Assembly: GCA_030530845.1 (NCBI GenBank)
Contig: JAUMUE010000008.1
Span: 1-53,799, forward strand
DNA length: 53,799 nt
Direction: 5' to 3'
Source: Limosilactobacillus sp.
GTDB lineage: Bacteria > Bacillota > Bacilli > Lactobacillales > Lactobacillaceae
Positions 38,601-53,724 of this stretch are shown here, in pieces. The number at the start of each line of letters is the position of its first letter. Within the stretch, counting starts at the first letter, position 1. The notes beneath the pieces were generated by a model, which saw only the letters and a list, made by a program, of their open reading frames with translations, ran no database searches and was not told the origin of the DNA. The translations under genes and the position numbers were made by a program.

Positions 38601-38831
38601 CTAATCATCGTCACTCAAGTAGTCATTCTCCAACTCGCGGAGAACTTCCCACATCGCTCGGTGCTGAGCCTGCGCTAGTGCGTCGAGGTCGCGGAGATTG
38701 AGCGAAGTCGCTTGCGATTGCGGCTTATTGAATGATTTATGTAAAGTCGTGTAGCCGTAACCCGAACTCTTGGAAACTTGGTAGATCGTCAAGTTGTGTA
38801 CCTCCAAGTATCTTTTGATATCGATTTGCAT
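38601..38831 (-). CDS. Small HTH protein, XRE-like
   Basis: A 76-residue protein; its ATG at 38831 has AAGGAAGTG upstream. Residues about 5-35 (KRYLEVHNLTIYQVSKSSGYGYTTLHKSFNK, split here only by function) read as a helix-turn-helix with the TIYQVSKSSG...TTLHK pattern of small XRE-like proteins. The C-terminal half is helical and acidic (REL ENDYLSDDD). No effector domain. It is divergent from the araT leader and upstream of clpL. Its promoter is covered by four TGTGATATA-type half sites, so autoregulation is likely, and control of clpL by read-through is possible. Confidence 0.78.
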   Translation of the reverse strand: MQIDIKRYLEVHNLTIYQVSKSSGYGYTTLHKSFNKPQSQATSLNLRDLDALAQAQHRAMWEVLRELENDYLSDDD

Positions 38832-38854
38832 GCTACTCACTTCCTTATGCTTAA

Positions 38855-38882
38855 AGTATATCACATTTGTGTTATAGCGCAA
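38855..38882 (-). promoter_or_regulatory. Promoter of the small HTH gene
   Basis: Minus-strand TTGCGC (38877-38882) and TATACT (38855-38860), spacer 16, fully overlapped by the repeated operator. Confidence 0.6.
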
Positions 38883-38908
38883 GTGTGATATAGCAAAAAT
38901 GTGATATA
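38857..38908. repeat. Four-copy 9-base operator array with 16-base period
   Basis: Direct copies TGTGTTATA (38868-38876), TGTGATATA (38884-38892) and TGTGATATA (38900-38908) start exactly 16 bases apart. An inverted copy, TATATCACA (38857-38865), pairs with the first to make a palindrome with a 2-base centre. The array spans the -10, spacer and -35 of the small HTH gene. Confidence 0.8.
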
Positions 38909-38992
38909 TTTTTGAGATTTTTATGAGAAGGGTCCAAAAGCACCGAAAGCACGGCATTTTAGCGTCATTTGCAATTTACAGTAAATTTTTTC

Positions 38993-39020
38993 TTGACAAT
39001 AATTAGAAATCGATTAGAAT
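38993..39020 (+). promoter_or_regulatory. Promoter of the leader-araT operon
   Basis: Consensus TTGACA (38993-38998) and TAGAAT (39015-39020) with a 16-base spacer, giving a leader transcript of about 240 bases before the araT ATG. Confidence 0.85.
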
Positions 39021-39055
39021 GATTAACAATCAGTTAATTAAAGGAGAAATCGCCA

Positions 39056-39133
39056 ATGCTATTGCTTATGCAACAATCAAATACTGCATATGCCTTCTGG
39101 TTTAGTGGATTCACGTCCGCTAGCCAGCAGTGA
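39056..39133 (+). CDS. Aromatic-rich leader peptide
   Basis: A 25-residue reading frame with a strong AAGGAG ribosome site 9 bases upstream of its ATG and a TGA stop at 39131-39133. Residues 12-19 read YAFWFSGF: one Tyr, three Phe and one Trp in eight positions, using TAT, TTC, TGG, TTT and TTC codons. Five of 25 residues are aromatic and all are in this cluster. It lies just before a set of competing hairpins and a terminator, and in front of an aromatic aminotransferase gene. Inference: a sensor peptide whose translation speed reads the supply of charged Tyr, Phe and Trp tRNAs, or which stalls in response to a ligand. Too short for similarity-based naming. Confidence 0.75.
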   Translation: MLLLMQQSNTAYAFWFSGFTSASQQ

Positions 39134-39245
39134 TTTTGTCATTGGTGGTTCCCGGATTCTCACCATATCCGGGTATACTCCGCATCATACTCATTCCAAT
39201 CTGATGAAAGGACCTGGATATGGCAGAACCATTCCAGGTCTTTTT
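39124..39245 (+). promoter_or_regulatory. Attenuator of the araT operon
   Basis: Competing structures can be drawn. Hairpin 1:2 pairs CCCGGAT (39151-39157) with ATCCGGG (39167-39173). Antiterminator 2:3 pairs 39163-39174 with 39212-39223 over 12 base pairs with a single G-U. Terminator 3:4 pairs GACCTGGA plus ATGG (39211-39223) with CCAT plus TCCAGGTC (39229-39240), then TTTTTG. The 2:3 and 3:4 pairings exclude each other, as do 1:2 and 2:3. A further hairpin (39124-39132 with 39140-39148) overlaps the leader stop codon, so a ribosome there would melt it. Confidence 0.78.
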
Positions 39246-39268
39246 GTATTCTCAGGAGGGATTTTATT

Positions 39269-40456: not shown

Positions 40457-41452
40457 ATGACAAAGATTTTAGTAGCAAACGTTCGTGAGTGGGAACTTTC
40501 CGATATTAAGACCTTCGAAAAGGAACACGAAATCGAAGTAATCACAACACCAAAGAATTTAGAAGATTCCACCGAATTATTGGCGGATGTCGATGGTGTC
40601 GCCATTCAACAACGTCAACCCCTCGATCCCGGCATCTATGCGAAGTTGAAGGAAAATGGAATCAAACAAATCGCCTCACGGACTGCCGGATATGACATGA
40701 TCGATGTTGAAAAGGCCCACGAAAACGGATTGGTCGTCACCAACGTTCCCGCATACTCACCACGATCCGTTGCGGAACACGCACTGACCCAAATTTTCCG
40801 CATGTTACGCAAGTCCTACTTGATCGATGCCCGGGCAGCCAATTGTGACTTTGGTTGGTACCCTGACGAACAAGCGACTGAAATTCACACTGCGACAATC
40901 GGTGTGATCGGTGTCGGCCGAATCGGTGGTGCTTTGGCCAAGATGCTCCATGCACTCGGCGCTGAAGTCCTGGGTTATGACGTTAAGCCACGAGAAGAAA
41001 TGAAGGGGATCGTCGAATACGTTTCTAAAGAAGAATTGCTGACGCGGTCCGACGTGGTTTCTCTTCACGTTAATTTGAACCCGACTTCAGAAAAGCTGAT
41101 CACTAAGGAAGATTTCGCATTGATGAAGCCAACTGCTGCCTTGGTCAACGCATCTCGCGGTCCAGTTGTCGTCACTGAAGACCTGGTCGACGCATTGGAA
41201 AAGAAGGAAATCGCAGCTGCCGCCCTCGATACATTCGTTGGCGAAAATGAAATCGTGCCAAAAGACCTCAGTAACACAGGCCTGGGTGATTTTCCATTGA
41301 TCGACAAGCTTCACAAAATGTACAATGTCTACCTCACTCCACACATCGCCTTCTTCACCAATATGGCCATCAAGAACATGGTCGACATCTCATTGACCGA
41401 CATCCTGACAATCTTGGATGGCAAGAAGTCTGAACACGAATTAGAGAGATAG
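40457..41452 (+). CDS. D-2-hydroxyacid dehydrogenase
   Basis: 331 residues, NAD-dependent D-isomer-specific family. NAD-binding fold ATIGVIGVGRIGGALAKMLHALGAEVLGYD; catalytic Arg in VNASRGPVVV, Glu in DTFVGENE and His in LTPHIAFFT; N-terminal SRTAGYDMIDVEKA. It resembles D-lactate and D-hydroxyisocaproate dehydrogenases. With AraT directly upstream, the fitting substrates are aromatic 2-oxo acids, giving D-phenyllactate, D-hydroxyphenyllactate or D-indolelactate and regenerating NAD+. The name by substrate is inference. Confidence 0.88.
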   Translation: MTKILVANVREWELSDIKTFEKEHEIEVITTPKNLEDSTELLADVDGVAIQQRQPLDPGIYAKLKENGIKQIASRTAGYDMIDVEKAHENGLVVTNVPAYSPRSVAEHALTQIFRMLRKSYLIDARAANCDFGWYPDEQATEIHTATIGVIGVGRIGGALAKMLHALGAEVLGYDVKPREEMKGIVEYVSKEELLTRSDVVSLHVNLNPTSEKLITKEDFALMKPTAALVNASRGPVVVTEDLVDALEKKEIAAAALDTFVGENEIVPKDLSNTGLGDFPLIDKLHKMYNVYLTPHIAFFTNMAIKNMVDISLTDILTILDGKKSEHELER

Positions 41453-53381: not shown

Positions 53382-53407
53382 ATTAAAGTACCTTGTTAAA
53401 AGGATAT

Positions 53408-53480
53408 GGGCAGTTAGCTCAGCTGGCAGAGCAACGGACTCTTAATCCGTGGGTCCAGGGTTCGATCCCCTGACTGCCCA
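53408..53480 (+). tRNA. tRNA-Lys(CTT), copy 1
   Basis: 73-base cloverleaf: acceptor GGGCAGT/ACTGCCC, anticodon stem ACGGA/TCCGT with loop CTCTTAA (anticodon CTT, codon AAG), T stem CAGGG/CCCTG with TTCGATC loop, discriminator A. CCA is not encoded. Confidence 0.96.
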
Positions 53481-53487
53481 TCATATA

Positions 53488-53596: not shown

Positions 53597-53645
53597 AATT
53601 ATCGTTGTTGAAATGAGCTGTTACTTTTCAGCTCACAGACATTAT

Positions 53646-53718
53646 GGGCAGTTAGCTCAGCTGGCAGAGCAACGGACTCTTAATCCGTGGGTCCAGGGTT
53701 CGATCCCCTGACTGCCCA
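53646..53718 (+). tRNA. tRNA-Lys(CTT), copy 2
   Basis: Identical over all 73 bases to copy 1, 165 bases downstream, with the same anticodon CTT. Confidence 0.96.
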
Positions 53719-53724
53719 TCATAC

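Follow-up and report, generated by a model that had tools for sequence, protein, structure and literature searches.

A putative ribosome-mediated transcription attenuator with an aromatic leader peptide and a six-arm RNA relay ahead of an aminotransferase operon in lactobacilli

The locus and its genes

The window, meaning the whole stretch of 53,799 nucleotides analysed here, is a contig of a Limosilactobacillus genome (labelled G000; its leader is labelled L001). By aminotransferase identity, the nearest named loci are those of Limosilactobacillus viscerum (81%) and L. panis (78%). A promoter-like site and a short reading frame rich in aromatic codons precede a gene for a class I aminotransferase, which is followed by a D-2-hydroxyacid dehydrogenase gene and then by pepT (Table 1). 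The aminotransferase reaches 478 bits against its best NCBIfam model, below the model cut-off of 576; the name araT, which is that of an earlier interpretation of this DNA (the sequence-only reading), is therefore provisional as regards the substrate. The closest solved chain to the dehydrogenase is 4xkj. Its gene follows the aminotransferase gene in 23/23 Limosilactobacillus loci and was not found after it in five loci of the genus labelled g30 that keep the leader; hence, the leader associates with the aminotransferase.

The sequence-only reading had placed a promoter, a strong ribosome site and a 25-codon aromatic frame ahead of the gene, and all three are present, the frame being conserved as 52 distinct peptides among the loci compared below. 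Seven promoter-like sites occur in the surrounding 2.5 kb against 3.6 ± 2.0 in shuffles, so that the promoter site alone is not decisive. The best site has at least 10/12 matches upstream of 67/67 leader records, a count made without a shuffle control. Divergent from this promoter, a minus-strand frame of 118 aa (38601–38957) has no NCBIfam match and shows 64–84% identity in related Limosilactobacillus loci. Elsewhere in the window, tandem tRNA-Lys(CTT) genes at 53407–53482 and 53645–53720 have equal Rfam scores.

Table 1. Positions in the window of the leader, its RNA arms and the two operon genes.
Feature	Position	Strand	Remarks
Promoter, sigma-70-type TTGACA-16-TAGAAT	38993–39020	+	11/12 consensus matches
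Leader ribosome binding site AAAGGAG	39040–39046	+	Read from sequence
Leader peptide gene, MLLLMQQSNTAYAFWFSGFTSASQQ and stop	39056–39133	+	25 codons; ATG 39056, stop TGA 39131–39133
Aromatic run YAFWF	39089–39103	+	Within MLLLMQQSNTAYAFWFSGFTSASQQ
Arm A, CTGGTTTAGTGGA	39097–39109	+	Overlaps F-W-F-S codons; A:B from folding, cognate pairing and g30 covariation
Arm B, GTCCGCTAGCCAGCAG	39115–39130	+	Partner of A (OFF) or C (ON)
Arm C, TGGTGGTTCCCGGAT	39143–39157	+	Includes arm 1 of the sequence-only reading
Arm D, CCATATCCGGGT	39163–39174	+	Arm 2 of that reading; partner of C (OFF) or E (ON)
Arm E, ACCTGGATATGG	39212–39223	+	Arm 3 of that reading
Arm F, CCATTCCAGGT	39229–39239	+	Arm 4 of that reading; terminator 3′ arm
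T run of intrinsic terminator, five T	39241–39245	+	Read from sequence
Class I aminotransferase, 394 aa	39269–40453	+	Best NCBIfam model PRK07309
D-2-hydroxyacid dehydrogenase, operon gene 2	40457–41452	+	D-lactate dehydrogenase models, scores below cut-offs

The leader peptide and its distribution

The leader was scored as present where an aromatic short frame is followed by hairpins. Twenty-three distinct aminotransferase loci with at least 58% identity were seen in Limosilactobacillus, five of the 22 genomes of this genus having only more distant homologues, which were excluded from the counts. One locus (L006) is cut by a contig end and was left out; among the 22 evaluable loci, the leader occurs in 21, the exception being L011. 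In other Lactobacillaceae, loci with E values up to 1e-135 carry it in 20/33 cases, distributed by genus as 13/14 in g30, 5/5 in g52, 1/2 in g33, 1/1 in g21, and 0/11 in g17, g20, g32 and g53 together. A search of 397 genomes for the pattern FYFWYF, which misses the run form of Limosilactobacillus and the forms devoid of Trp, added a sixth leader genus (g47) and brought the g52 leaders to 21. The leader genera are thus Limosilactobacillus and five further Lactobacillaceae genera (g30, g52, g33, g21 and g47), a spread that is a lower bound given the identity and E limits to which loci were covered. The pattern was found at 55 places, 34 of them leader-type, and 34/34 of these lie before an aminotransferase homologue of the same family. 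Within the reach of this pattern, the idea that the leader also precedes other genes was considered and rejected, the other 21/55 places being judged not leader-like by reading; leaders of the forms that it misses may still precede other genes. On an aminotransferase tree from which outgroup paralogues and L006 were omitted, the leader label requires five changes, and the leaderless genera sit on long branches.

Several loci show peculiar arrangements. In L011 (genome G018), near its position 1501, the clpB-like gene and the small HTH-like gene share the strand of the aminotransferase gene, from which they diverge in the window; the HTH-like gene directly abuts the aminotransferase ATG, and neither leader nor promoter is left, an arrangement that a local inversion would produce. 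In L070 (G194, g30), the leader upstream of the aminotransferase gene is apparently decayed: the aromatic frame is no longer intact, but traces similar to the W-codon region persist, as does a terminator-like sequence that includes a T run. The aminotransferase gene of L055 (G081) contains two in-frame TAA codons, its leader being intact.

The 52 distinct peptides come from 67 leader records, in which four g52 genomes are represented twice. All have an ATG start, and an SD-like match of at least four bases is found in 53/67 records. The N-terminal part of the peptides drifts, while the aromatic run is shared. Common forms are AYAFWFS, AYYFWFS, AYDFWFS, NAFSYWFWNS and TYLAWFFFASA, together with SFYYFWYFA, FYFWYFG and SFYFWYFR, the last three ending at the stop. 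The best eight-residue stretch includes at least two Phe and at least one Tyr in all 52 distinct peptides, and Trp is absent from it in five. Leaders were recognized partly by the aromatic run, so that its universal presence is not an independent count, whereas the exchange of residues within it is. Aromatic residues interchange freely there, and Trp can be replaced by Lys with a compensated stem (columns 10–11 with 37–38 in g30). In the joint Tyr, Phe and Trp sensing proposed previously, Trp proves not to be essential; because of the five peptides without Trp, it was rejected as the main signal.

An aromatic-rich short frame is by itself rare but not unique. At least five aromatics in eight residues occur in 7/898 short frames of the window (4/526 on the plus strand, 3/372 on the minus strand), two of these seven having an SD-like site, and in 6/1553 short frames of 26 background loci, none with such a site. 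What excludes a chance frame is the conservation of the leader among orthologous loci.

T-boxes are common in Lactobacillales, and the T-box model gives 24 matches elsewhere in G000 at E 0.001, nine of them over the cut-off. Against this setting, a riboswitch or T-box RNA, binding a metabolite or tRNA and bearing an accidental frame, might be expected at the locus. This reading is hardly credible: the same model is silent at the leader, both at gathering and at E 10, and no other Rfam family matches there above gathering, matches at E up to 10 being at chance level only. In addition, the 52 peptides retain the frame with its start codon and the aromatic run, despite a drifting N-terminus. A T-box or other Rfam family was accordingly rejected.

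Six alternating arms in the leader RNA

The leader RNA of the window (39086–39250) folds at −62.4 kcal/mol, compared with −41.0 ± 4.1 kcal/mol in 200 shuffles (z −5.2; 0/200 as good). The sequence-only reading had drawn a classical attenuator with a hairpin 1:2, a 12-bp antiterminator 2:3 and a terminator 3:4. The terminator (E:F) is borne out at −20.0 kcal/mol (z −5.5) with five T after it; a simple terminator scan does not list it, its stem having a bulge. The 2:3 duplex does consist of 12 pairs, one of them G-U, in a stretch of −18.4 kcal/mol (z −3.1), and hairpin 1:2 is weak alone (−11.0 kcal/mol, z −1.4). Upstream, a B:C hairpin of −22.0 kcal/mol (z −5.5) lies as far from its shuffles as the terminator. 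Arms 1–4 and their alternation are therefore retained from the classical layout, and the count of four is not, since arms A and B make six. Two mutually exclusive forms result: A:B, C:D and E:F (OFF), and B:C and D:E (ON). The aromatic cluster and the 2:3/3:4 alternation, whose absence from orthologous leaders would have spoken against the attenuator as first drawn, are both kept there. Overall, the arms, both sets of pairings, and the frame with its aromatic run are supported by sequence, conservation and folding.

A relay of this kind would operate as follows. If translation of the leader proceeds to the stop, or does not take place at all, A:B (or a ribosome sitting on B) would separate B from C; C would then pair with D, E would be free for F, and transcription would end near 39245. 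A ribosome stalled on the aromatic codons would instead cover A and let B pair with C. The released D would pair with E, the terminator would be blocked, and the aminotransferase and hydroxyacid dehydrogenase genes would be transcribed. We infer here a real ribosome stall at the run and an end of transcription at E:F; the presumed trigger would be a shortage of charged tRNA-Phe or tRNA-Tyr, joined in most species by tRNA-Trp. The stop of the leader had been reported to lie 17 bases before arm 1, which left it unclear how a ribosome could act on 1:2. This distance is confirmed, and it need be no obstacle to ribosome control because the A:B and B:C pairings would relay the ribosome position to arm 1.

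For tests of cognate pairing and ribosome position, 15 leaders were chosen for divergence and their arms set by hand; automatic arm finding missed L007, L008, L016, L017, L036, L061, L062 and L074, and strayed in at least four more. For A:B, B:C, C:D, D:E and E:F, pairing is stronger between cognate arms than after swapping among leaders, with 0/20,000 permutations as good for each. The six skipping pairings show no cognate advantage or, for A:C and A:D, a weak one (of 20,000 permutations, A:C 252, A:D 1102, B:E 3094, and above 11,000 for each remaining pairing). Because these arms were hand-picked, the middle arms were also fixed solely by their outer pairings. In this retest, D:E was better than shuffles (p below 0.05) in 15/15 leaders and B:C in 10/15; with B trimmed to the partner of A, B:C fails in L001 (the window), L003, L012, L053 and L080.

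Covariation was scored within two genera, with the caveat that related sequences can beat shuffles without any structure. Among the 13 aligned g30 sequences, the share of cells that retain the pair is 96.6% for the OFF form (covariation 0.281 versus 0.202 shuffled; 0/500) and 94.2% for the ON form (0.298 versus 0.190; 0/500). Shifting the partner by one to three columns abolishes both signals; the number of further pair types is unexceptional, 75/500 and 446/500 shuffles being as high. Column 38 in arm B is U rather than A in five sequences, and its partners, column 10 in arm A and column 53 in arm C, change too. These five sequences are the ones in which Trp is replaced by Lys; they form a single clade of the aminotransferase tree and may represent one event.

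Fourteen Limosilactobacillus leaders were aligned, L012 and L054 being omitted after arm D was misaligned in a first alignment. For A:B and C:D, 96.8% of cells retain the pair and covariation is raised (0/500), with no surplus of pairs in which both partners changed (135/500 shuffles). The C:D arms of L001 are shifted by one register in this alignment, which counts against C:D there. B:C is kept in 98.2% of cells and its score is not exceptional (55/500 shuffles as high) because these arms hardly vary in the genus.

These weakest statistics among the Limosilactobacillus pairings, together with the reality of arms 1–4 (C–F), are what speaks for a four-arm trp-type attenuator as first drawn, in which A:B and B:C would be incidental. 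In such an attenuator only arms 1–4 would exist and arm 1 would overlap the leader frame; here, the stop precedes arm 1 and two more arms lie upstream. The stability of B:C is hard to reconcile with an incidental hairpin, arms A, B and C covary in g30, and without B:C a ribosome on the run cannot reach 1:2. A trp-type device is thus very unlikely.

The ribosome was modelled by hiding the 5′ part of the RNA up to 13 bases past the A-site codon, which describes equilibrium folding and not kinetics. For transcripts ending in E, a ribosome placed at the stop leads to C:D in nine of the 15 leaders, and in these nine its placement on most aromatic codons leads to B:C with D:E; the free RNA also forms C:D in seven of these nine, L013 and L016 being the exceptions. 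In the other six, D:E appears in every state (L001, L007, L012 and L057), the outcome is mixed (L003), or the switch goes the wrong way (L080). When elongation from E to F is averaged, 13/15 leaders have a best-stall D:E share more than 0.15 above that of both the free and the stop state, the margin being missed by L057 and L080. With one fixed stall position, 13/15 native leaders pass this margin (all except L007 and L080), in comparison to 13/180 copies with a scrambled arm B. Once F is complete, the window leader forms B:C and D:E for stalls at F3 and F5, and C:D and E:F as free RNA, with a stall at Y1 or with the ribosome at the stop. In L061, every state gives C:D and E:F at complete F, and the difference is confined to earlier transcripts, so that a kinetic decision must be assumed there. 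Taken as modelled, a stall over the aromatic codons would probably switch the operon ON.

L080, which alone represents g52 among the modelled leaders, carries an additional hairpin and fails the simple switch model. Throughout L118–L138 (g52), such a hairpin, GUGUUUGUGCC with GGUGCAAACAC or a close variant, lies between arms A and B.

Since the modelled ribosome over A favours the ON form in most leaders, any slow ribosome, for instance under an antibiotic, might open the operon, the aromatic run merely making the pause. A general sensor of translation stress of this sort is a remote prospect: the placement of all 34 leader-type FYFWYF matches before aminotransferases of one family points to an amino-acid signal.

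Precedents, trigger and role of the operon

The evidence strongly favours a translation-coupled attenuator whose leader is aromatic. Its preferred form, to which we give a probability of roughly two in three, is ribosome-mediated attenuation of transcription through a relay of six arms. The closest precedent is the his attenuator (hisL) of Escherichia coli and Salmonella, in which, according to the available part of PMC10989985, the AB, CD and EF pairings terminate and BC and DE allow read-through. As in hisL, regulatory codons stand in a row in the gene of a short leader peptide, and six arms in the same alternation and a U run follow. The lactobacillar leader shows the terminating form AB, CD, EF with its U run, the alternative BC, DE form with shared arms (BC not being exceptional inside Limosilactobacillus), and a translatable frame with a codon run for the sensed amino acids, a run that partly served to find the leaders. 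It differs from hisL in that mixed Phe, Tyr and Trp codons replace seven His codons, and in that it precedes an aminotransferase–dehydrogenase operon of Lactobacillaceae whose host is apparently unable to make the amino acids sensed. The likeness is one of presumed working; common descent is not claimed.

Peptide-based attenuation had been called rare in Firmicutes; it is uncommon there but known, with examples in the accessible portions of PMC2965389 and PMC5794164. In Staphylococcus aureus, the part of PMC5794164 at hand describes leucine-rich leader attenuation of ilv-leu and mentions that leaders have been predicted for branched-chain genes of Lactococcus lactis and Streptococcus, which belong to the same order as the lactobacilli. 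The ilv-leu leader resembles the present one in that a leader peptide attenuates an amino-acid operon of a Firmicute, and differs in its leucine signal and biosynthetic operon. Leader peptides of his operons are described for bacilli (PMC2965389) and other Firmicutes (PMC9413887), in the sections available of both; these likewise combine a peptide leader with a terminator and an antiterminator, and read His codons. For the histidine genes of Lactobacillales, the same portion of PMC9413887 reports T-boxes.

Thus, the mechanism class is already known, and a literature search of partial coverage, mainly in openly licensed papers, found no description of this leader, which would be a new member of that class. 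Aromatic regulation in low-GC Gram-positive bacteria was reportedly treated by Panina et al. in 2003.

The cause of the stall is a separate matter. In TnaC, free tryptophan arrests the ribosome, the stall occurs at the stop codon, and the peptide acts on Rho-dependent termination. As far as the available parts of PMC8429421, PMC3902921 and PMC10941005 describe it, this leader peptide of the tryptophanase operon switches the operon ON by stalling and, in PMC10941005, depends on conserved residues along the peptide. The lactobacillar leader is similar in preceding an operon related to aromatic amino acids (that of TnaC being catabolic) and in the ON outcome of a modelled stall. It is dissimilar in that its residues vary and its terminator is intrinsic.

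By analogy, the same relay could have the opposite trigger, an excess of free aromatic amino acid arresting the ribosome in the run and inducing disposal to phenyllactate-type acids. A modelled stall over the run gives ON whatever its cause, a transaminase with a hydroxyacid dehydrogenase looks catabolic in an apparent aromatic auxotroph, and in the g30, g47 and g52 leaders seen the run ends one residue before the stop. Even so, this trigger seems unlikely. Instead of fixed arrest residues, the first position of the run is F or Y, Trp changes to Lys and Tyr to Cys, the spacers are A, V, D, Y, S or L, and Trp may be missing altogether. The C-terminus and stop position vary in Limosilactobacillus, and a ribosome at the stop, where TnaC stalls, gives the OFF pairing C:D in 9/15 leaders. 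The interchange of residues suggests that codons are read rather than a fixed arrest sequence. Together with the loss of Trp under a compensated stem, it makes a shortage of charged tRNA the favoured trigger of the relay.

The metabolism of the host complicates this picture. Prephenate dehydratase (PF00800) was found in 0/52 chosen genomes versus 14/14 controls, chorismate synthase (PF01264) in 34/52, and prephenate dehydrogenase (PF02153) above cut-off in 28/52; three of 19 Limosilactobacillus genomes have both of the latter. G000, which is 95.9% complete, has no match to any of the three models, so that it likely lacks these aromatic biosynthesis genes, and the host is apparently unable to make Phe and Tyr. 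A biosynthetic role via prephenate was therefore rejected for this host; the operon is probably not a maker of Phe or Tyr from chorismate there. It lacks the typical trait of his attenuators, an operon making the sensed amino acid, and is not the usual biosynthetic operon induced by hunger. A switch that opens on a stall is puzzling in an apparent auxotroph, as a disposal operon would not be expected to open in hunger. A likely use would be the recovery of aromatic amino acids from keto or hydroxy acids in times of shortage.

It is an even bet that supplies of Phe and Tyr, usually together with Trp, are sensed jointly by one leader, that its his-type relay of six arms evolved independently in lactobacilli, and that its control of the operon defies textbook logic: either a hunger-type switch acts on an apparent disposal pathway in auxotrophs, or the same relay serves an arrest peptide of novel sequence type that responds to aromatic amino acids. 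If true, this would be a conserved peptide switch that reads several aromatic amino acids in a family better known for T-boxes. The enzyme types of the operon are those that make phenyllactic and indolelactic acids, and AraT is linked to 2-hydroxyacid production in Limosilactobacillus fermentum in the available part of PMC11432647. The leader would accordingly offer a handle on when gut and food lactobacilli make compounds of this kind. As for chorismate, the 28/52 genomes with prephenate dehydrogenase, in a set with 0/52 for the dehydratase, could form Tyr, but not Phe, from it.
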